The position numbers and the translations under genes were made by a program. The notes beneath the pieces were generated by a model, which was not told the DNA's origin, searched no databases, and was given only the letters and a program-made list of their open reading frames with translations. DNA of 64,000 nucleotides from Anaerolineae bacterium (GTDB taxonomy: Bacteria > Chloroflexota > Anaerolineae > Anaerolineales > E44-bin32), in assembly GCA_011192015.1 (NCBI GenBank), contig DUET01000011.1, forward strand, positions 1 through 64,000, in the 5' to 3' direction. Of this stretch, positions 1-37,211 are shown one piece after another (the first letter of the stretch is position 1; each line of letters starts with the position of its first letter).

Positions 1-702
1 AACCTCACTTTCACAGAGATCTGCTTTATCACCGAAGCCAATCGCATATATAGGAATGGATACACGAATCGCTTCAAGAGCGGCTATCTCTGGATCCCGA
101 ATCAATCCCGTCGTGTTGCACCCATCTGTGAGTAGTACCACTGCTCGTCGTCCGGCGGATAACTCACTAAGCATACTTATTGATTCTGCAACGCCATCAT
201 AAAGGGCTGTATCCCCATCTGCGGTCAATTGTGAAATTGCGTTAAGGACCGAATCCTTATCCGATGTTGGTGACGCGATCGATGTGGCTTGGTCTGAAAA
301 TGCCACGAGTCCTATTTGGTCAAGAGCGGTCAGGCTGCTGGAAAAAGCTCTGGCTGCAATCTCAGCTTGGCTAAGGGCATGGTCTCGTGCCATGCTTGCG
401 CTGGTGTCAATAGCTAACGCGAAGGATATGGGTTCCTCAGTATTTGAGAACCCTTCGATCGAAAACTCGTCTACTGGCGCTTCATCTTCCATGATAGAGA
501 AGGCGCTTGCATCCAAACCTAAGATCGGGAAACCTTGGGCATCAGAAACGCTGACATATGTAGAAATGAGAGGGAATTGAGTGTCGTCGATTTTGGTGAT
601 CGATGCATTGATATTGCCCTGCGCAGAGACTGCATGTGTGGTTGCGAGAATACATGATGCTATCGCTATGATAAGCAAACGGAAGATCTGAGATAATTTC
701 AT
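1..702 (-). CDS. secreted von Willebrand factor type A (vWA) domain protein, C-terminus cut by window edge
   Basis: Not in the ORF track because it is open at the left edge. Minus-strand translation from ATG at 702: MKLSQIFRLLIIAIASCILATTHAVSAQGN...FALAIDTSASMARDHALSQ...GDTALYDGVAESI...RAVVLLTDGCNTTG. Signal peptide, MIDAS DTSxS and LLTDG motifs; GGAGGTGAT Shine-Dalgarno upstream. Confidence 0.85.
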   Translation of the reverse strand, partial: MKLSQIFRLLIIAIASCILATTHAVSAQGNINASITKIDDTQFPLISTYVSVSDAQGFPILGLDASAFSIMEDEAPVDEFSIEGFSNTEEPISFALAIDTSASMARDHALSQAEIAARAFSSSLTALDQIGLVAFSDQATSIASPTSDKDSVLNAISQLTADGDTALYDGVAESISMLSELSAGRRAVVLLTDGCNTTGLIRDPEIAALEAIRVSIPIYAIGFGDKADLCESEV

Positions 703-1202
703 CGAATCACCTCCATGGAAAAAACTCCCCATCGAATGACATGTTCAGCAAAAGCAGTATGTAAATTTAGTTCTTGAAAACGGAATGAAGGATATCCCAT
801 CCGAATGATAAATGTTTCTCAAAGCCCCATGTACATGATATCAATACCCCTATTGGATGATATGTGAAGAGATTGCATATACCGGTAAGGAAAATAACTA
901 CAACCGTTGGAATCCAGCAGCATATAATTAATACAACTGGGTTTCGGTTGTGTCAACCAGTGCTATCTCAACCGAGCATATATTCATCCCCCTTTTGCGA
1001 ATACTCTAAGTTAGTTAATACATATTTGAGAGGAAATCCATTATATATCCTCAAAATCTATACTGCAACACCAAGTTAATGCAGAGAGTTTCTTCATGCG
1101 GATGGACCGTCTATGACAAGTCGGCAACGTCTCCGATGTTTCCTTCCTTCTGAAGAAAATCTCAGATGCTGTATTAAATAGTCTGGAGTTATTCATAAGC
1201 GA

Positions 1203-1288
1203 AGGCGCCCTCTCGGGCGCCTTTAGGTAGCGGGGTTTGGATTCCCTGGCCTGACCGGTCAGGGCAGGCGAACCAAGGACCTTCAGGT
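1203..1288 (-). pseudogene. tRNA-Met 3'-half remnant plus terminator hairpin, interrupted in the T-loop by a 25-nt insert (attachment-site-like)
   Basis: 1203-1244 and 1270-1288 align to 4031-4072 and 4073-4091 (terminator hairpin plus 3' half of the intact tRNA) with about 4 mismatches over 61 nt. 1245-1269 (cctggcctgaccggtcagggcaggc) is an extra near-perfect palindrome. Confidence 0.75.
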
Positions 1289-1480
1289 ACTGAGCTTCGT
1301 CCCTGAAAAAGTTAGCTCGGAACGTCAGCCGAGGCATTTGAGCCTACCTTGCAGTTTGAGGTTCCTTTGGATCCGACGAGATGGGATCCTAGGGAGTATA
1401 GGATCACTTCAGAAATGACGCAAATGCTAGGGACAGTATCTGTCCAGCAGCCTACTGATTAAGAATTATCAGCAGAAGTG

Positions 1481-1548
1481 TCTATTGTGTCCATCGTGTC
1501 TACTTTGGGGGCGCAAAACCGTCTATTGTGTTTGTTGAGTCTATTGTT
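1481..1548. repeat. degenerate 9-bp tandem repeat block, 3 + 3 units with a 14-bp interruption
   Basis: TCTATTGTG/TCCATCGTG/TCTACTTTG (1481-1507), then GGGGCGCAAAACCG, then TCTATTGTG/TTTGTTGAG/TCTATTGTT (1522-1548). Confidence 0.65.
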
Positions 1549-1740
1549 TGAACTCCAATTGCACCGAAACTGCACTAAAAACCGATTGAGGAAAGGCGGC
1601 TCGACCTGGCGTGATCATGCCTGATATCAAGATAAGGGGAATGAGATGGGTGATCGAGGTGCCTTCCTGTGGGTAGATAGCGTTCTAGAGGTTTTCTTAT
1701 TCGCGGCAGAAGCCGATCAAGTTATCCGCCAATAGAATGC

Positions 1741-1770
1741 GGAACTCCCGGATATTGCGCCGGGAGTTCC
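1741..1770. terminator. hairpin downstream of the I42-like gene
   Basis: GGAACTCCCGG-atattgcg-CCGGGAGTTCC, perfect 11-bp inverted repeat; no strong T-tract. Confidence 0.5.
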
Positions 1771-1798
1771 GTCCCGCAGGCTTAATGCCCTCCAGCAG

Positions 1799-2236
1799 TC
1801 ATCGCACAACCACTGTCAAGGTGAATGTCCAGCTGTTCTTTTCGCCACCATCCCATGGCTGACTGTATCCCAGTGTTATGATGCTTTCTCCTGCTTTGAG
1901 CGTACTGAAGGTCCAGGTGTGGATGCCCGGTGAGCCAGGAGGGGGAGGGTCATCGACCGATCCCGGAGCTGTGAATTCCTGACGATCTTGCACTATCACC
2001 TCGGGGTTGCTTAGTTCAGCATCCTCTTTCCAGTTGTAGCCTGTGGTCGGATTGGAGCAGAGGCTGATGGTGATTTCGGCGCCTTCACGGACTTCAATGC
2101 GATGAACCTGGTTCGGCGAGTTTGCGAAGGCATCGCAGTCAATATCGATCGATCCAGGCGCGGTGCAGGACGACAGCAGCACCATCAGGACCAGCGCAAG
2201 AATCTTCAGTATACGGGGGGAGGTGGCTTTCATCAT
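1799..2236 (-). CDS. secreted chagasin-like (MEROPS I42) cysteine protease inhibitor, lipoprotein
   Basis: Lipobox LSSC; NPTTGYNW motif and SPGIHTWTFSTLKAGES segment typical of I42/chagasin; AGGAGA Shine-Dalgarno. Confidence 0.75.
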   Translation of the reverse strand: MMKATSPRILKILALVLMVLLSSCTAPGSIDIDCDAFANSPNQVHRIEVREGAEITISLCSNPTTGYNWKEDAELSNPEVIVQDRQEFTAPGSVDDPPPPGSPGIHTWTFSTLKAGESIITLGYSQPWDGGEKNSWTFTLTVVVR

Positions 2237-2274
2237 TATTTCTCCTTTAACTACTGCTCGATGCGGCTGTTGTA

Positions 2275-3588
2275 CTAATTGCCAACGAATTCAATGCGTG
2301 TGATCACGATCTGCGTGAGGTTCCAATCCGGGATGCCTGCCATCAAGCTTCCCCAGATGCGAACCCGTGTTCCCGTGTCCCGCAGAGACACGATCTGGGG
2401 CTCAAGCTCGGGATTTCCACTCGGTCCGAAGGCTGTGATTCCGTACTGGATGGGGTAATCACCTTCGAGAAGGAAGTAGTCATCGCCACCCGATCCGGGT
2501 TCGGTTCTGCCGGTGACGATGGTGCCTTCCCAGCCCTCGACTGGATCCGGGTCGAAGAAGGGACCGGGGCCGCTCACACGCATGCGTGTGACTCGAAGCT
2601 CACAGCCTCCGTAATCCAGCGCCGGGCAGATCAGCTTGCCCCAGAAATTGGCGTAGCTGTTAGCCTCTAACCCATCGCGTAGAGCAACGATCTGCTGCTC
2701 GATGGTTTCCGTTTCACCTTCGATGCCGATTTCGACGATGCCATCCGGATTGACGGAGAGGTAATCATCATGCTGGCTTCCAACGGGGAGCTTGATGACT
2801 TGCCCATACCAGGCAAATGCAGTCTCATCCGTCTCCACTGCCGGAGGTTCATCAATCAATTCGATGCGCGTGACCTCGATCTGCGTGCCGTTCCAATCCG
2901 GGATGCCTGCGACCAAACTGCCCCAAATGCGGACCTTGGTTCCCGTATCCCGCAGGGATTCGATCTGAGGTTGAAGCTCGCGCTCGCCGCTCGTGCCAAT
3001 GGCAGCCACGTTGCCGTACTGAATGGGGAATTCCCCATCGAGCTGGAAGTAATCATCGCCGCCCGATCCCGGTTCGGTTCTTCCTGTGAAGAAGGTGCCT
3101 TCCCAGCCCTCGACGGCTTCAGGTGCAGAGAGAGCACCAAGTTCATGGCGCTGAACACGGGTGACGCGAAGCTGGCACTCACCATAATCAAGCACCGGGC
3201 AGGTAACGGTGCCCCAGAAGTGAGCATTGCGGCTTGATTCCGGTTGATCCCGTAAAGCGACGATCTGATCCTCAATGGCCGCCGTTTCTCCCTCGATCCC
3301 GATCTGAACCATGCCGTCAGGATGGACAAAGAGCAGATCATCGTATTGGTTACCGGGAAGACCGATCACATACCCGTACCATGCGTAGGCCATCTCTACA
3401 ATGCCACCCCCAGCAGCTGGAGGTTCTGTCTCCACCGGTTCAACCTCATCGGTGGGAGGCATTTCGGTTTCGGTAGGAACTTCAGGGGCTAGCGTTGGTG
3501 TGTCGGTTGCACCGCATCCTGCGAGTGCAACGGTGCTCAAGACGAGAATAAACACGCCCAACAATGCTAGTGTTTTATCTAACATCAT
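2275..3588 (-). CDS. repeat-containing lipoprotein of unknown function
   Basis: Start trimmed to MMLDKTLALLGVFILVLSTVALAGCG (lipobox) after an AAGGAG site. Tandem units share ..G.DDYF..DG...I.G....I..QI..LRD......WG.L......L.VTR. Confidence 0.75.
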   Translation of the reverse strand: MMLDKTLALLGVFILVLSTVALAGCGATDTPTLAPEVPTETEMPPTDEVEPVETEPPAAGGGIVEMAYAWYGYVIGLPGNQYDDLLFVHPDGMVQIGIEGETAAIEDQIVALRDQPESSRNAHFWGTVTCPVLDYGECQLRVTRVQRHELGALSAPEAVEGWEGTFFTGRTEPGSGGDDYFQLDGEFPIQYGNVAAIGTSGERELQPQIESLRDTGTKVRIWGSLVAGIPDWNGTQIEVTRIELIDEPPAVETDETAFAWYGQVIKLPVGSQHDDYLSVNPDGIVEIGIEGETETIEQQIVALRDGLEANSYANFWGKLICPALDYGGCELRVTRMRVSGPGPFFDPDPVEGWEGTIVTGRTEPGSGGDDYFLLEGDYPIQYGITAFGPSGNPELEPQIVSLRDTGTRVRIWGSLMAGIPDWNLTQIVITRIEFVGN

Positions 3589-3807
3589 CCTCTCCTTCAA
3601 GATTAGAGTGCCTCCTTCACACCTCTTCAAACTCATTACCCCCAAATGCAGCAGACTGAACTCCTTCAATCCCCAAGGTATCAGACGAAGAATATTCTGC
3701 TGCGGTTCCCCTCGAAATGCAAATGACCTGCTCCCCAAGAATTGATCCATATACAGAGCTAGGATCAGATACCTGAAATGGGAAGCCACCTAGCGGGGGC
3801 TTTTTTG

Positions 3808-3892
3808 TGGGCGGAACAGGACTCGCCTGTCCCGATGCTCTATCGGGGAACCTCCGACCTCTTCTGTGTAAGAGAAGCGTTCCGCTACCAGC
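3808..3892 (-). pseudogene. tRNA-Val(UAC) 3' remnant with a 23-nt hairpin insert in the T-loop
   Basis: Minus strand: ..GGTAGCGGAACGCTTCTCTTACACAGAAGAGGTCGGAGGTTC[CCCGATAGAGCATCGGGACAGGC]GAGTCCTGTTCCGCCCA. TAC anticodon arm kept, 5' portion (acceptor and part of D-arm) missing, insert at 3825-3847. Confidence 0.65.
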
Positions 3893-4030
3893 AGTCGATA
3901 TCATTTGCATAATGATTCTTCTAGAGTCCAGGCTAATATCCAAGCGGTCCTAGGTTTCCTTCCTATATAAGGGGGGCTCAATAAGGAAGAACGCCGTTAA
4001 AACCACTCTCAGAGGGCATTTTAAGGGCTA

Positions 4031-4050
4031 AGGCGCCCTCTCGGGCGCCT
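4031..4050 (-). terminator. hairpin immediately 3' of tRNA-Met
   Basis: AGGCGCCC-GAGA-GGGCGCCT on the minus strand; identical hairpin at 1203-1222. Confidence 0.55.
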
Positions 4051-4055
4051 TCAGG

Positions 4056-4127
4056 TAGCGGGGCTAGGATTCGAACCTAGGACCTTCAGGTTATGAGCCT
4101 GACGAGCTGCCACTGCTCCACCCCGCA
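4056..4127 (-). tRNA. tRNA-Met(CAU), initiator-like
   Basis: TGCGGGGTGGAGCAGTGGCAGCTCGTCAGGCTCATAACCTGAAGGTCCTAGGTTCGAATCCTAGCCCCGCTA; full cloverleaf, CAT anticodon, unpaired 1:72 (T:T) as in initiators. Only two of the three usual G:C anticodon-stem pairs are present. Confidence 0.9.
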
Positions 4128-4182
4128 ACGTTTGCGGTCTTGCTTGAGCGCTGGGGATTATATCACGCCGCTCGCGCGAGGG

Positions 4183-4590
4183 TCAAGGCCGGTCCCCGAA
4201 GATGAGCGCCCACCACACTTCCCACTTGTTCACCACCGGTTCTGAAAACTGCACGAAGGGTGTTGGCGTGGGGACGAAGCCCTCCGCGGGAATGGGAATG
4301 ATCAATGTTTCCCCATTGCGCACCATCTTCCCCTCGCTGTGCGCCCAGGCTTCGATGAAGGCTTCGCTCGTGGCGTTGGCGATCTGTGTTTCCAATCGGG
4401 TGTTTTCGGCTTCCAGCCAACCCACCTCGGTCTGCAGCAGGTGGGCATCCTGCTCCAGGCGGCGGGCATCCGTCATGCGCTGGTTCAGGTCGCCCAGGAC
4501 GATGATGCCCAGCACAGCCGCGATCAGCAGCCACATGCGTGCGCTCTTACGGGAGGACGAATCGCCTTCTGCCATTTCAGTCGAGATCAT
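4183..4590 (-). CDS. FtsB/DivIC-like septum formation initiator family protein
   Basis: Start trimmed to MISTEMAEGD..; one TM helix followed by coiled coil (RRLEQDAHLLQTEVGWLEAENTRLETQI). Confidence 0.65.
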   Translation of the reverse strand: MISTEMAEGDSSSRKSARMWLLIAAVLGIIVLGDLNQRMTDARRLEQDAHLLQTEVGWLEAENTRLETQIANATSEAFIEAWAHSEGKMVRNGETLIIPIPAEGFVPTPTPFVQFSEPVVNKWEVWWALIFGDRP

Positions 4591-4640
4591 ACCTGAGGCG
4601 CGTGGCGGCTGCAAGTATTCCGCTCCTCGGAGAAACAGAC

Positions 4641-4664
4641 ACAGCCCCTCTGTCTGAGGGGCTG
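4641..4664 (-). terminator. hairpin 3' of tRNA-Leu
   Basis: AGCCCCTC-AGACA-GAGGGGCT on the minus strand, followed by GTGTCTGTTTCT. Confidence 0.55.
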
Positions 4665-4671
4665 CTGTTGG

Positions 4672-4755
4672 TGCCGAAGGTGGGATTTGAACCCACATGA
4701 GCCGAAGCTCACTGCGCCCTGAACGCAGCGCGTCTGCCTGTTCCGCCACTTCGGC
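4672..4755 (-). tRNA. tRNA-Leu(CAG)
   Basis: GCCGAAGTGGCGGAACAGGCAGACGCGCTGCGTTCAGGGCGCAGTGAGCTTCGGCTCATGTGGGTTCAAATCCCACCTTCGGCA; class II tRNA with variable arm; anticodon loop TTCAGGG. Confidence 0.95.
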
Positions 4756-4844
4756 ACGCCCCGCTATTCTACCCCATGTGGCGAAGGTGTCAACGCATGC
4801 CAGGAAAATTCAATCGTGGGGAAGAATGAAACGTTGTGTAAACG

Positions 4845-7800
4845 CTAGCCCGAGACCTGCTTGATGGCCTCGTCTAATCGCAGGCTGATGACCCTGCTCG
4901 CCGAATCCGCCCCCATGCTGACCCCGTAGATCACCTCCGCGGCCTGTACGGTCTGGCGGTTGTGGGTGATCAAGATGAACTGCGTCTCCCGGCTCAGCTC
5001 GCGCAGCATGTCGATGAAGCGCACCACGTTGGCTTCGTCCAGCATGGCGTCCACCTCATCCAGGACGCAGAACGGCGTGGGGGAGATCTTCAGCAGGGAG
5101 AAGATGAGTGAGGTCGCCGTCAGGCTACGCTCCCCGCCCGAGAGGGCGGCCAAGCCCTGCGATCGACGTCCCGGAAGCCTGGCTTCGATGTCGATACCGC
5201 TGTTGCTGAAATCATCCATATCCGTGAGTATGAGGCGCGCCGAGCCTCCTCCGAAGAGCCGCGTGAAGGTCTCCCGAAATTCCTTGGCGACGGCCTCGAA
5301 CGTCTTGCGAAACTCGCGTTCCATGAGCACGTCCAACTCGGCGATCACCTCGCGAATCTGGGTGGCTGCCTTCTGGCTGTCCTCCAACTGCTGGGTCAGG
5401 AAATCAACGCGCGCCCGCACTTCCTCATACTCGCTCTGGGCCTCCGGGTTGATGGCGCCCATGCGTCGAAGCTGGGCCTTCAAGCGACCCATCTGAGTCT
5501 GCAGATCGAGGGGGAGATCCTCCACGCGTGGCAGCCGTTCCACGAGTCCCTGCAACGGAAGAGGTTCCTGGCTGGCTATGGCATTCTGATCTTCGAAGGC
5601 AACGAGGCCGAAATCATCCTCGATCCGGCGACGCAGGCTCGATAGTTCCTCTTCACGGCGGGCAAGCTCGATCTGCAATTGCGAATGCCCGCGCTCGGCC
5701 TCCTGCAGCAGGCTGCGGGTGAGGCTCTCTTCGGCCTCCAACTGCGCGCGTTTGTCCTCCGCTTCGGTCAATGCCTGCTCAGCGGGTCGGACTTGAGCTG
5801 TGAGCTCCTGGAGCTGCTGCTCCACCTCCTCCGCATCCCTGCGCGCGTCTTCGATTTCCGCCCGCAGCTCCTCTTGTTCCTTCTGATTGGAGGCAAGGCG
5901 ATGCTTCCAGTTCTGCAGTTCATGCTCGAGGGCATTGCGCTCATGTTCGACTTCACTCAAACGGCTGCGTGCCTGCTGTTCGGCCTGTGCAGCCACGTCG
6001 AGCGGGGAACCGAACTCCACCCACTCATCACCCTCCGGTCGCAATTGACTCTGGATGATACCCAATTCAGCGTCGATGCTCTCACGCTCGAGATCGTAGG
6101 TCGCCCCCTTGCCTTCCATCTCCCTACGCTGCTGCTCGAGCCCATCGATCTCGGTTTCCAGCAACTCCAATTGCCCCTTGAGAAAAGCCAGCGTCCGGTT
6201 GGCATCCTGCTTTGCGAGCTGCATCTTCTCCGCATGCAGCTGCGCTTCGCCCTCGGCCCGCCGGGTGTCCTCCAGATTCTGCTGCGCTTCCCCGAAGCGA
6301 TCCTCCGCCTGCTTCGTCTCTTCTGCGGCACGCTGTGCTTCTTGGGCTGAATCCAGGCTTTTTCCCTTCAACGCAGCCAGCTTGGTCTCCAACTCTGCAA
6401 GCCGCTTTCCCGCCGCCGAAGCAGGATGGTCCGCGCCGATCATCACGGCGCCCGATGCGTAAAACACCTCGCCTGCCAGCGTGACCAGCCTGCCATCCGG
6501 TGGCAGTTCGATCCTCAGGCGCTGGGCCGTCTCGTGGTCCTCCACTACCCAGGCGCGCCCCAACAGCATATTGGCAAGCTCCCGGTAGTCTTTCGAAGTC
6601 TCGACCAGTTCGGCTGCGTTTCCCAGGCATCCGGAAGCGCGAGGCGCTTCGATCAATGACGGCTCGTGAAACAGGGATAGCGGCAGCAGCGCGGCAGGAT
6701 CCCCGTCGTTCCGTTGGGCCAACCAGCGCAGCGCCTCGCCGACATCATCGCCGGTCTCGAAGGCAACTCCAGGCGCGAAGCTGCCCAAGAGGGCTGCGAT
6801 AGCGACCTGATACGCAGGTTCAATCTTCAAGGCATCGCCCAGCTTGCCGGCCAGGCCACCCAACTCCCCGCTGGCGGAGGCCTGGATCATGCTCTTCGCT
6901 ACGCGTTCCGAATCTTCCAGCGATCGCTGGAGCGCATCCAATCTGGCCTCGACGGAATCCTGTTCGGTTTTGATCTTGGCGGCGTCTCTCTCCAGCCGCT
7001 CCTGATCCACCCGCTTCTCCTCGACCTTTGATCGAGCCGAAGCTAGTGCGGTCTCTTGCTTCTCGAGTTCTTCACGCGCCGTTTGTAATCGCTTCTCCGC
7101 ATCCAAAGCCTGCCGCTCTGCATCACGCGCCAATGTCTCCGCAGCAGATACATCTCCATGCAAAGCTGTGCGTCTCTCGCCCAGGGCGTCCGCACGCGCA
7201 TTCAGCTGTGTCGATTGAGCCTCCCAGGCGGCACGATCAGCGATCAGCCTCTCCTGGGAGGTCTGAAGCTCCCGCATGCGAGAGGCCAGCATGGTGCGCT
7301 GTTCGTCCTGGTCTTCGCTAACCGGCTGCTCGAGAGAGTACTTTGCGGTTGTGACCGCTTCCTGCCGGCGTTGGGCTTCCCGCTGCGCGTGCTGCAGACG
7401 TTCCCGGATCACCTGCCGGCGATCCTCCAGCGTTGTGATCTCCGCCTGCAGGAATTTCTCCTGATCGCCCAACCAGCGCTCGCGTTCTTGGGCAACCGCC
7501 AGACGGCGACCTCGAATCTCACGCTGACCGTACAGGCCTGAAACCTCCCGCGCATTGCGGTGCAGGTCGCTGCGCAGCCCATCGATGCGCCGGCGCGCCT
7601 CGACCAGCTCGCGATCCGCACGTTCATGACGCGAGCGAAGATCGTCCCGCTTGGTTTCCTGATTGCGGGCTGCGGTCCTGCGGGTCACGACATCGGATTG
7701 CATCTTATGCCAGTGGTAGCCATACCAGATGCGCAAGGCTTCCTTCAGATCCGTGCGCACCTGCTCATGGTTGCGCGCTCTGCGTGCCTGACGCTCCAGG

Positions 7801-8435
7801 CTTCTCAAGCGCGGGCGCAACTCCGACAGGATATCCTGGGCACGTTCGAGATTGCGCTGCGTGGCATCCAATCGGCGTTCGGCTTCCTGTCGCCGGATGC
7901 GGTATAAACCGATGCCGGCGGCCTCTTCGAACAAGCGACGACGTTCCTCCGCGCGAAGCGAGAGCGCCGCATCCACCAAACCCTGGCCGATGATGGTGTA
8001 GGTTCTTTCGGCCAACCCGCACTCGGCCAACAACTCGACTACGTCGCGCAGGCGTACACGCTGCCCGTTGAGCAGATACTCATTGTTGCCATCGCGGTAG
8101 GCGCGCCGGCTGATGCTGACTTCGTTGAAATCGATCGGCAGCCAGCCATCGCTGTTGTCGAAGATGATCGTAGCCGCGGCCATCCCCGCCCGGGAGCGTT
8201 TTTCGGAACCGGTGAAGATGACGTCCTCGGTGCGTTTGGCTCGCAGCAGGCGGTAGGATTGTTCGCCCAAAACCCAGCGGATGGCGTCGGCGATGTTGGA
8301 CTTGCCCACACCGTTGGGGCCCACGATGGCCGTGATCGTGGGCGCGAAGGCGAACTCCGTCTTGCTGGCGAACGTTTTATATCCTTGAAGCTCGATAGAT
8401 TTCAAACGCGCCGGAGCGTCGAAAATAGATGGCAC
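4845..8435 (-). CDS. smc: chromosome segregation protein SMC
   Basis: Walker [10 protein letters not shown], coiled coils, hinge, C-terminal [36 protein letters not shown] start at 8433-8435 chosen (..[25 protein letters not shown]), 4 nt after the rnc stop. Confidence 0.95.
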
Positions 8436-8439
8436 GACG

Positions 8440-9213
8440 TCACTTGCCTCCCAGGTCCGAGACCTTGTAGCCAATACGCCTGAGCGCATTTTCAGCAGCT
8501 TGCTGCGCGGCTTCTTGCTTGCTCCGCCCGCGGCCTCGGCCCTGTACCCGGTTTCTGACCGAAACCTGCACGACAAATTCACGGGCATGATCGGGGCCAT
8601 GCTCTTCCAATGTCCTGTATTCAGGCGTAACTCCCATCTCGGCCTGAGCCCACATTTGGAGCATGCTGCGTGAATCGATCAGAGATCGTTCCTCGAACGT
8701 GTGCTTCATCGTCTCCTGCAAACGCGGTTCGATGAACTCACGCACACGCTCGATGCCTCCATCCAGGAAGAGCGCGCCGATAAGCGCCTCAAAAGCATCA
8801 CAGAGCAATGTCGGCCGTTGCCTCCCCCCCGCCATGCTTTCTCCCTGCCCCAGGAGCAGCGCCTCGCCAAGATTCATCTCAGTTGCGAATTTGCTCAACT
8901 GCTCGGTGCAGACCAAGGAAGACCTCAGTCGTGTGAGTTGGCCTTCATCCATCTCGGGGAAGTGGTTGTAGAGCCAGGCTGCGCTGAGGAAATCCAGGGC
9001 AGCGTCTCCAAGAAACTCGAGGCGCTCGTTGTCCTCCAGGGCATCTGGATGCTCATTGACATACGAACGATGCGTAAGTGCCCGCAAGAGCAGACTGGGG
9101 TCGCTAAACTCCAAGCCTGCCTGACGCGCAAACTCGTCTGGTGTCATTTGTTTATCCAAAGACTTAGGGGACGCCACGAATCCAGGGGCGCCTGACTTCG
9201 CCGCGTCCCCCAA
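8440..9213 (-). CDS. rnc: ribonuclease III
   Basis: NERLEFLGDAALDFL signature, C-terminal dsRBD. True start may be the Met at about 9147. Confidence 0.95.
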   Translation of the reverse strand: MGDAAKSGAPGFVASPKSLDKQMTPDEFARQAGLEFSDPSLLLRALTHRSYVNEHPDALEDNERLEFLGDAALDFLSAAWLYNHFPEMDEGQLTRLRSSLVCTEQLSKFATEMNLGEALLLGQGESMAGGRQRPTLLCDAFEALIGALFLDGGIERVREFIEPRLQETMKHTFEERSLIDSRSMLQMWAQAEMGVTPEYRTLEEHGPDHAREFVVQVSVRNRVQGRGRGRSKQEAAQQAAENALRRIGYKVSDLGGK

Positions 9214-11675: not shown

Positions 11676-12148
11676 CCTCTTTCTCCATCAGCAACATCCT
11701 GCTCGCTGCGGTCGGTTCCAACCGGACCACGATCCACACCCAAGCGCGAGCCCAATCGATCCATGCCGAATCGGGCAGCCTCCCACAACCCTTCATCAGG
11801 TTGCCTCGAGCTGCAGGCGATCATCAACACCGGCATGCCGGGTGCGGGGGTCCCGAGTCGTTGAACGATGCCAACACCTGCGACGGCAGGCCAGCGGGAG
11901 CGAATCTCATCCACGGCGTGTTGCATCTCCTCTTCAGAACAACCCGAAAATCCCGCTGCGCATTCATCATCATGCAAGCCGATGGTCCCCGTGATGACAC
12001 ACACAACGGCCGTCTCCGGAGTCACGAGGCTTTGCATCAGCGCATGGAGATCGAGTGGATCTTCGGTGGAGCGGAGAATGGTGGGACCGGGTTCAACCAT
12101 GCATGCTCGCAGGAAAGTAGATCGCATCTTCATCGATGCCGATTCCAA
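11672..12148 (-). CDS. MoaE-like (molybdopterin synthase large subunit-like) protein, degenerate
   Basis: EEEMQHAVDEIRSRWPAVAGVGIVQRLGTPAPGMPVLMIACSSRQPDEGLWEAARFGMDRL resembles the MoaE core; the PIWKKE lysine segment is not recognisable. Start/stop overlap with the lyase gene. Confidence 0.55.
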   Translation of the reverse strand: MESASMKMRSTFLRACMVEPGPTILRSTEDPLDLHALMQSLVTPETAVVCVITGTIGLHDDECAAGFSGCSEEEMQHAVDEIRSRWPAVAGVGIVQRLGTPAPGMPVLMIACSSRQPDEGLWEAARFGMDRLGSRLGVDRGPVGTDRSEQDVADGERG

Positions 12149-12248
12149 CGGATTATACAGGATGCCCCCCTGTAGTTCTTCGAACGCCTTGCGTTCCTGG
12201 AAAAATCTGCGTGCATCGGAGGTCGAAGCTCGAGCACATCAGCCAACC

Positions 12249-12276
12249 TTGACACGGTGATCAGGACTGCTATAAT
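12249..12276 (+). promoter_or_regulatory. sigma70-type promoter upstream of rpmF
   Basis: TTGACA - 16 nt - TATAAT. Confidence 0.7.
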
Positions 12277-12330
12277 GTTTGGACCTGCCTCTTGGCAGGC
12301 TGTATTTTGCGAAGCGGAAGAAGGAATGCC

Positions 12331-12516
12331 ATGCCACCTCTACCTAAACGTAAGACCTCACGAGGACGCCGCGACCGTCGCCGGGCACACCATGCCCTCT
12401 CCCCGCGCGCATTGATCACTTGCCCCAATTGTGGACAGAAAACTCTTCCCCACCACGTCTGCGGCAATTGCGGTCATTATGCCGGACGTGAGGTCATCGA
12501 GATCGAACGCTCCTAG
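12331..12516 (+). CDS. rpmF: 50S ribosomal protein L32
   Basis: [49 protein letters not shown]. Confidence 0.95.
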
Positions 12517-12557
12517 CCGTTCCATCCAACAACCCTAAGATTCACCCTACCTCTGAT

Positions 12558-13505
12558 ATGGGTATCGATCCGAAGACGACGGCCTTCATCTTCCCTGGCC
12601 AGGCATCTCAACGCCTGGGAATGGGGCGCGCATTGGCCCAGGCCGATCCCCATGCAGCGGAAGTTTTCACTCGCGCGGATCAAATCCTCGGCTACCCGAT
12701 CAGTAAAATCTGCTGGGAAGGTCCGCTTGATGCTCTGAACGACACAGAGAACACCCAACCGGCGCTTGTGACCCATTCAATCGCCGTCTTGCGAGCCCTT
12801 CAAGCGCGCCATCCATGGTTGCAGCCGGTTTATGCAGCTGGTCACTCGTTGGGAGAATACAGCGCTCTGGTTGCCGCAGAATCTCTCGCGTTCGATGACG
12901 CCCTGCGGTTGGTGCTGGAACGCGGTCGCGCCATGAAACAGGCCGGCGACCTCAATCCAGGAGGCATGGTCGCCGTCTTGGGAGTGGTGATCGGCGAAGT
13001 GGAGCGTGCCTGCGACGCGGCAGCGGAGGCAACCGGAAAACACGTGCGTGTGGCCAACGACAACTGCCCGGGCCAGATCGTGATCTCCGGTGAACAACCT
13101 GCCCTGGATACAGCCTCCAAACTGCTGCGTGCTGCGGGTGCACGCAAGCTGGTACCACTGGCGGTGAGCGTTGCCGGGCATTCGCCGCTCATGCAGCCGG
13201 CCCAATCCAGGCTCGAAGCTGTGCTCGCAGATACACCCATATCGGATCCATCCTTTCCCATCATCGGGAACGTGAACGCCCAACCCCTGCGCAGCGCCGC
13301 AGCGATCCAGCAAGAGTTGAGCGTTCAACTCACCGAACGCCTGCGCTGGAACGAGAGCATCGGCAACATGATCGCTGCCGGTGTGGATACTTTGATCGAA
13401 TTGGGCTCCGGAAACGTTCTCACTTCCATGATGAAGCGCATCGAGAGGAGTGTGCGCTCCATCGCAATCGACGAGCCAGATAGCTTTTCCTTGCTCGATC
13501 CATAA
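12558..13505 (+). CDS. fabD: malonyl-CoA-ACP transacylase
   Basis: FPGQASQ..., AAGHSLGEYSAL active site. Confidence 0.95.
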   Translation: MGIDPKTTAFIFPGQASQRLGMGRALAQADPHAAEVFTRADQILGYPISKICWEGPLDALNDTENTQPALVTHSIAVLRALQARHPWLQPVYAAGHSLGEYSALVAAESLAFDDALRLVLERGRAMKQAGDLNPGGMVAVLGVVIGEVERACDAAAEATGKHVRVANDNCPGQIVISGEQPALDTASKLLRAAGARKLVPLAVSVAGHSPLMQPAQSRLEAVLADTPISDPSFPIIGNVNAQPLRSAAAIQQELSVQLTERLRWNESIGNMIAAGVDTLIELGSGNVLTSMMKRIERSVRSIAIDEPDSFSLLDP

Positions 13506-17441: not shown

Positions 17442-18419
17442 ATGCGAAAAGGCGGTGATCCCACGATGACCGAGACCGAAGAGACCCTTCCCCTCTTTTC
17501 AGAGAGACGGGATCGAGCATCCGGCACAGCCGAGCAGACCGCTCGATTGCGTTCCGATTCCAGTTTAAATGCCGCCATTCGATCCTGGGGAGAAGCCCTC
17601 GAGGAGGATGGGAAATCGATCCACACGGTCAAAGCCTTCACGGGAGATATGCGCTTGCTGGCAAAATTCGTGGGCGCGGGTCAAGCCATCAACACAATCG
17701 GCACGCATGATCTGAAGAACTTCCTCGAGTGGATACTCCATGGCCGCGGCGTTCCATGCAGCCCCAAGACGTACGCACGCCGCATCACATCTCTCAAGGC
17801 CTTTTTCCGCTGGTTGATGCAGGAAGGGCTCCTGACCGAAAATCCCGCTCAACCCATCCCGCAGCAGTCGGTTCTCAGTCCGCTTCCCACAGTGCTCACA
17901 TCCGAAGAGATGGAGAGCGTGCTGGAGATATCTGATGCCATGCGGCGCGGGACGAATCCCGATCCGCGCCCATATACGCTCGTCAGCCTCCTGCTTCATA
18001 CAGGCATCAAGAAGGGGGAATGCCTGGCCATCCATCTGAATCACATCGATCTGCTGGATCCCGAAGGCCCGGTGTTGTTCGTGCGTTATGGCGATGTTCG
18101 CAAACGCTATAAGGAACGCAAGGTGGATCTTCCCCCTGAGTGGGTCGGTGTCTATCGGGAATACCTCAAACAATACGGACCGCGCGATCGTCTCTTCCCC
18201 TGGTCCCCACGACGTTTGGAATACATCCTGGAGGACATCGGGGCGTCAGCAGGATTGGTGAAGCACCTTTCGTTCGACATGTGCAGGTGGGCTTGTGCTT
18301 TGAGGGATTACAAACGCGGCATGCCGGACGAAAAGATCCGCCAGAAGTTGGGCATCTCCAAGATCCAATGGCGTGAAGTGGGGAATAAACTCGACCGTCT
18401 TGCGGTTCAAGCAGATTGA
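17442..18419 (+). CDS. tyrosine recombinase (Xer/integrase)-like protein, probably catalytically inactive
   Basis: N-terminal SAM-like core domain (HTVKAFTGDMRLLAKFV..KTYARRITSLKAFFRWLMQEGLLTENPA) and C-terminal catalytic-domain fold (LLLHTGIKKGECLAIHLNHID), but Arg I, HxxR, LGH and Tyr positions are substituted. Confidence 0.75.
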   Translation: MRKGGDPTMTETEETLPLFSERRDRASGTAEQTARLRSDSSLNAAIRSWGEALEEDGKSIHTVKAFTGDMRLLAKFVGAGQAINTIGTHDLKNFLEWILHGRGVPCSPKTYARRITSLKAFFRWLMQEGLLTENPAQPIPQQSVLSPLPTVLTSEEMESVLEISDAMRRGTNPDPRPYTLVSLLLHTGIKKGECLAIHLNHIDLLDPEGPVLFVRYGDVRKRYKERKVDLPPEWVGVYREYLKQYGPRDRLFPWSPRRLEYILEDIGASAGLVKHLSFDMCRWACALRDYKRGMPDEKIRQKLGISKIQWREVGNKLDRLAVQAD

Positions 18420-36882: not shown

Positions 36883-37024
36883 CAAACCTCCTGGTATACG
36901 ATCGTTGCAGCCATGCCCGACAATTCCCGCCCTCCGAAAGAAAACGCCCCTTTCGTGTCGACAAGGGTCGTAGGAGTCCTTTGAGGCCGCTCCCACCCCC
37001 CTTCCTCGAGGTTGGTGGTAGCGC

Positions 37025-37150
37025 AATTCGGGCGGGCGACCTGGCTCTTCGCGTGAGCGAATTACAGTTGCGGGACAGCGCCGGACTTCAACCGGCTTCG
37101 CCGTTCGGCCCTCCCTTCCGAGGGATAGGGCACCCGAGCTGCACGATATG
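37025..37150 (-). promoter_or_regulatory. cobalamin riboswitch
   Basis: Minus strand: CTCGGGTGCCCTATCCCTCGGAAGGGAGGGCCGAACGGCGAAGCCGGTTGAAGTCCGGCGCTGTCCCGCAACTGTAATTCGC..GAGCCAGGTCGCCCGCC; matches the AGGGAA-type / GGTtgAAgTCCGGcGCtGtCCCGCaACTGTaA / GAGCCAGG..CGCC consensus. Confidence 0.92.
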
Positions 37151-37211
37151 CTTTTGTCGAAATGATTGTACTACAAGACCCTATCGACGCAACAAGACCG
37201 GCCCCACACGA

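Follow-up and report, generated by a model that had tools for sequence, protein, structure and literature searches.

A two-gene block of ∼2.8 kb was identified between the intact tRNA-Met gene of an Anaerolineales-type MAG and a decayed copy of the 3′ half of that tRNA gene, and this islet is probably a decayed, integrase-less gene cassette that a tyrosine recombinase mobilized in trans. A reading of the sequence alone had proposed an integrative islet at this place; it is not a lone islet but is best read as one unit of a multi-copy, family-wide cassette population. The DNA analysed, here called the window, comprised bases 1 to 64000 of contig C12 (77 kb), which begins at window base 1. The features of the islet and its surroundings are collected in Table 1.

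Table 1. Features of the tRNA-Met islet and adjoining DNA (window coordinates)
Feature	Position	Strand	Evidence or remark
Gene for a vWA-domain protein, truncated at the contig edge	1..732	-	PF13519, 1.7e-16
attL-like relic: terminator and tRNA-Met 3′ half, reaching to the anticodon loop	1199..1294	-	Self-comparison, family alignment, shuffles
Near-perfect palindrome of 24 nt, CCTGGCCTGACCGGTCAGGGCAGG, inside the T-loop of the left Met relic	1245..1268	.	Separates the two matching blocks
D-type arm, element end beside the Met relic	1295..1408	+	Similarity to arms on C29 of the source genome; D-arm position of relatives
Cargo gene 1: secreted inhibitor of cysteine peptidases, chagasin type (I42), 145 aa	1799..2236	-	PF09394, 1.4e-20
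Cargo gene 2: lipoprotein composed of internal repeats, 436 aa	2275..3585	-	Internal repeat in self-comparison
Second relic, from tRNA-Val(TAC): 3′ part with the terminator tail	3795..3882	-	Aligns to tRNA-Val of the source genome at C106:31584
A-type arm, element end beside the intact tRNA-Met	3856..4030	+	69% to C29:2950-2744 over 213 nt
attR-like end: terminator and intact tRNA-Met(CAT)	4027..4127	-	ARAGORN, Rfam, family comparison

A direct repeat of the tRNA-Met 3′ half flanks two genes

ARAGORN and Rfam detected an intact tRNA-Met(CAT) gene on the minus strand at 4054/4056-4127, followed towards lower coordinates by a terminator, and a tRNA-Leu gene at 4669-4755; the left copy of tRNA-Met was not scored as a tRNA by either, only these two genes being detected. 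A cobalamin riboswitch was located further along the window at 37014-37152 on the minus strand (Rfam RF00174, E 6.7e-12). Self-comparison of 4.7 kb showed that the left copy repeats, in the same orientation, the terminator and the half of tRNA-Met that runs from the anticodon loop to the 3′ end, with 1199-1244 matching 4027-4072 (91% over 46 nt, E 2.6e-13) and 1269-1295 matching 4072-4098 (89% over 27 nt, E 4e-4). The gapless match score of the repeat was 36, compared with 8-12 for ten dinucleotide-model shuffles, and the direct repeat is far above chance.

This repeat had been proposed in the sequence-only reading and was borne out, but its count of ∼4 mismatches over 61 nt was not; when the palindrome in the relic was skipped, about 7 mismatches were found over about 72 nt, and two of these lie in the anticodon loop, which reads TACTGAG in the left relic (1288-1294) and TTATGAG in the intact tRNA-Met. 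The compensatory A:T to T:A change described for the T-stem is present, but the basal pair has changed too (C:G to T:G). The intact tRNA-Met is retained at the proximal end of the islet. The islet is now probably fixed, since the distal core has decayed by the two loop substitutions and the palindrome in its T-loop. Beyond the relic, the truncated vWA-domain gene is possibly the cargo of the next unit outward, and a stretch at ∼1100-1200 near this gene resembles arm A (described below) by eye only.

Palindromes interrupt the tRNA relics

Neither the palindrome in the left Met relic nor the tRNA-Val relic had been recognized in the sequence-only reading. The T-loop of the tRNA-Val relic holds a 23-nt palindrome of its own, at about 3825-3847, and a Met relic fused to the terminator and 3′ part of tRNA-Val was also found in genome G023 (contig C264). 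Among relics recovered with intact ends, palindromic inserts were located in the T-loop in 12 of 23 and in the anticodon loop in 4 of 23, a distribution from which inserts at some other positions would be missed by the anchors of the relic search. These data suggest that the palindromes prefer loop tips. REP-like palindromes in relic loops were also observed at loci L028, L061, L144, L151, L251, L258, L138 and others; several unrelated palindromes share identical loop positions among relics, and nested ones occur in G003 C83.

The cargo is varied

The I42 inhibitor encoded by the first cargo gene has distant homologues in three other genomes of the family and one in the source genome. The lipoprotein encoded by the second matched no Pfam family over the cut-off and has homologues in 12 of the 27 family genomes, the source genome included. 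This second gene need not be foreign, because a paralogue 81% identical to it lies in an ordinary gene neighbourhood of the source genome (C93:134204-135502), the likeness being confined to the coding region. Other cassettes of the family carry genes for PIN, GH10, AbiEi/AbiEii, Fic, MFS and WD40/PD40 proteins.

Conserved arms accompany tRNA-Met halves in the family

The comparison set consisted of 27 genomes of an Anaerolineales family, all fragmented MAGs whose contigs often end in the repeats described here. Many copies were found in which the 3′ half of tRNA-Met gives way, beyond the anticodon loop, to a conserved arm that is not part of a tRNA (arm D) and is bordered on its other side by a second arm (arm A). 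Copies of this A-C-D form, where C denotes the tRNA-half core, recur on a single contig, with one to three genes between them, on G018 C58, G018 C52, G023 C136, G041 C15, G041 C164, G042 C162 and G003 C83. Genes adjacent to arm D follow the direction of the tRNA in 22 of 29 cases (manual count) and often stop 18-60 bp before it.

The source genome harbours two more divergent copies on C29, at about 1061 and 2749, and it is by their similarity to these that the two inner ends of the islet are recognizable as arms A and D. The D arm was matched in two parts (1280-1330 with C29:1070-1020, 84%; 1343-1408 with C29:2580-2515, 79%) and shows a short similarity to the arm on G041 C53, while the similarity of the A arm to C29:2950-2744 runs on to window position 4062. 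Among 400 genomes of the order, arm D was matched in 11, nine of them within the family, and is nearly confined to this Anaerolineales family. Most of the relatives in which the same arms occur are Anaerolineales MAGs; short contigs with these arms also occur in MAGs labelled Sumerlaeota and Syntrophobacterales (L108, L110, L112), through misbinning or transfer.

The arms gave no match to Rfam as structured RNAs; in RNAalifold their folding energy was better than that of column shuffles, with covariation near zero. Arm A was also considered as a relic of tRNA-fMet, as it appears T-arm-like by eye, and this identification was rejected without covariance-model support. Two dispersed intergenic repeats, E1 (L069, 7881-8035) and E2 (L069, 8029-8153), are present in dozens of copies in genomes of genus g13; E2 likewise terminates at the anticodon loop of tRNA-Met and is apparently a further type of arm.

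Divergence begins at the anticodon loop

With one mismatch allowed, the 3′-half core GGACCTTCAGGTTATGAG gave 33 matches in the 27 family genomes, and the adjoining 5′-half core TTATGAGCCTGACGAGCT gave 19, about one per genome. Every surplus copy of the core is a 3′ half only, and divergence starts in each right after TTATGAG, the 7-nt anticodon loop. Elements that tyrosine recombinases integrate at tRNA genes are known with a 7-nt overlap at an anticodon loop, and we infer that the crossover region of the attR-like end lies at 4091-4097 (TTATGAG).

A local tandem duplication of tRNA-Met, with one copy decayed and the genes trapped between, would also place one relic near one intact tRNA in the same orientation. 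This origin is very unlikely, as it is the 3′ halves alone that are duplicated, in many genomes and at many loci, and these share one boundary and have conserved arms.

The layout seen in the window was found again with different cargo in G024 (C71), where a relic and arm D lie 2 kb beyond an intact tRNA-Met, and the genes between encode a regulator of the arsR family and a transporter of the SBF family. Arm A directly adjoins an intact tRNA-Met in G023 (C115).

A filled and an empty site were identified in two sister genomes. Two genes that we take to be rsmG and recF, the names being a reading of the translated genes without a family search, are separated by 2.16 kb in G023 C19 and by 47 bp in G041 C86. 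The segment in G023 comprises the repeat E1, a tRNA-Met half with the arm type E2 attached to it, a gene for a DUF4143 ATPase and arm D. It ends with CCAACTCATAA followed by TATTAACTAG, G041 reads CTAAAGGT followed by the same TATTAACTAG, and the boundary falls between CTCATAA and TATTAAC; this places the edge precisely behind the anticodon loop. The segment with the ATPase gene (1.5 kb, 92%) sits elsewhere in G018. An insertion in G023 is favoured over a deletion in G041, because the edge is at the core and the gene has this other location in G018. An empty site at the window's own locus was not found; the only congener, G001, is an incomplete assembly and gave no match to tRNA-Met.

These junctions also bear on whether any cassette moved at all. 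The copies could instead belong to a dispersed, self-copying intergenic repeat of MITE- or REP-like kind, partly derived from tRNA, with the intervening genes incidental. Copies with D only, A only or A and D lie at many loci, the outer end of D is sharp, E1 and E2 adjoin in many copies, and contigs end in repeats, all as such an element would have it. The D-only and A-only copies also speak against the simple cassette model, which some orders of A, cargo and D do not fit. However, the hybrid of arm A and intact tRNA in G023 C115 and the distant relic with arm D in G024 and in the window require recombination with the tRNA, and a gene lies within the inserted segment of the filled and empty pair. 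We therefore consider a self-copying repeat unlikely, if the least so of the alternatives, and a cassette that integrates at the tRNA remains the preferred reading. The sequence-only proposal of an integrative islet without integrase at a tRNA 3′ half is supported by the surplus 3′ halves, their common boundary in the loop, the arrangement in G024 and the filled and empty pair.

Recombinases, mobile elements and integrons

No integrase is encoded inside the islet, as the sequence-only reading had stated, and in eight genomes in which PF00589 matches and their 1.5-kb flanks were inspected, no recombinase gene was found within 1.5 kb of an A-C-D copy where checked. Tyrosine recombinase genes are present elsewhere in the family genomes. 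One tyrosine-recombinase-like gene in the window (17442-18419, 325 aa) gave a weak match to PF00589 and was rejected as the recombinase of the cassettes; by eye it is without the usual catalytic residues, and it recurs at similar length in relatives. In G016 (L171, C123, 11710-13192) a probable integrase gene lies directly downstream of an initiator-type tRNA (CAT), an ordinary tRNA-targeted element within this bacterial family.

A tRNA 3′ site with two att-like ends and no integrase corresponds to the definition of a CIME (PMC5704250), and the islet might accordingly descend from a large element at tRNA-Met, an ICE, IME or prophage, from which the genes for integration and transfer were lost and which suffered later deletions, the similarity of the arms reflecting one old family; the tyrosine recombinase genes elsewhere in the genomes would suit such a history. 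It is nevertheless improbable for cassettes that are uniformly small (about 1-6 kb), varied in cargo and spread over several genera. No phage or conjugation gene was seen in the cassettes by Pfam analysis of the cargo, and exact searches of IMG/VR with three arm patterns returned no matches.

The single-gene units, and the outer end of D often lying 18-60 bp past the stop codon of a gene in the same orientation, at the place expected for attC, also resemble a chromosomal integron cassette array. True IntI genes are present in G018, G023 and G024, and a cassette protein on C29 of the source genome is 67% identical to that of the cassette closest to intI in G024; the arrays thus have cargo families in common with a true integron. 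However, the best match to IntI in the source genome reached 38 bits against a cut-off of 265 (TIGR02249), a simple R-box/L-box scan detected no attC in window 1-9000, C29 or four other array contigs, and the core is half a tRNA. The same scan found three attC in the G024 integron, which served as positive control. That the islet is an integron array is hardly credible, and movement by a tyrosine recombinase at tRNA-Met is again preferred. The G024 integron (L299, C44, 133-13067) is chromosomal, with intI at 12069-13067, a minus-strand cassette array and recognizable attC; the IntI genes of G018 (C144, C248) and G023 (C38) had no attC nearby by the simple scan.

T-stem alleles

The intact tRNA-Met genes of the family carry seven different, fully compensated T-stem sequences (L160-L169, L235, L237, L252 and others), and relics often carry a T-stem allele unlike that of the host's intact gene (G000, G021, G041 C53). 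The suggestion that the relic in the window came from the tRNA of another lineage agrees with both observations, and the alleles fit an exchange of 3′ halves between lineages. In G003 (L068, C150, 5882-6069) a contig ends with two inverted tRNA-Met genes, which may be an artefact of assembly.

Discussion

The mobile form of the cassettes would be a small circle carrying one or more cargo genes and an attachment site composed of arm A, the core C (terminator and tRNA-Met 3′ half) and arm D. Strands would be exchanged by a tyrosine recombinase provided in trans, within TTATGAG, either in the chromosomal tRNA-Met or in the core that an earlier cassette brought. The incoming 3′ half may then rebuild the tRNA, replacing the resident allele, while the displaced 3′ half would stay on the distal side of the cargo. 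Tandem arrays would arise as the process is repeated, and occasional use of other sites would scatter cassettes elsewhere. The model predicts circular A-C-D junctions and a trans-acting recombinase.

The kind of structure is already known from CIME accretion, additive genomic islands and the tRNA cassettes of Actinomarinales; new relative to it are arms that recur in many copies, secondary sites to which cassettes have dispersed, and palindromes within the tRNA loops. CIMEs, described together with the tandem accretion of ICE/IME (PMC5704250), likewise have attL and attR and no integration genes, but are presented as decay products of larger elements, whereas the units here are small and many. 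The additive-island cassettes of 'Ca. Actinomarinales' (PMC7771536) are, like the islet, small gene cassettes at tRNA genes; the available portion of that account makes no mention of conserved multi-copy arms, cassettes away from tRNA genes or palindromes in relic loops, all of which are features here. In fGI-2 of 'Ca. Methylopumilus' (PMC10872708) a growing variable island is also marked by the 3′ end of a tRNA, repeated directly and in series, but there the last 20 nt of tRNA-Lys are repeated and here the tRNA-Met half with its terminator. Tycheposons (PMC10872708) similarly bring cargo to tRNA genes including tRNA-Met, but are 4-200 kb and carry a tyrosine recombinase, while the units here are about 1-6 kb without one. 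Integron cassette arrays resemble the present arrays as series of mobile single-gene units, with one cargo family common to the G024 integron; they differ in that no attC was found here and no IntI over the cut-off in the source genome.

A wider reading can be offered only tentatively, as we hold it to be a good deal less probable than the account of the islet itself. The Anaerolineales might possess an integron-like system that uses half a tRNA as recombination site, in which cassettes of one to a few genes, bearing sites of the form arm, tRNA half and arm, are inserted at the tRNA-Met anticodon loop by a shared recombinase encoded elsewhere. Such cassettes would form arrays, reach secondary sites and trade cargo with true integrons, and the replacement of 3′ halves would drive the variety of T-stem alleles. 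The cassette model itself would give uncultured sediment Chloroflexota an added route of gene capture, by small serial cassettes at an essential tRNA without a linked integrase, and would link the evolution of the tRNA to mobile elements, as each integration would swap the tRNA 3′ half and with it the T-stem.
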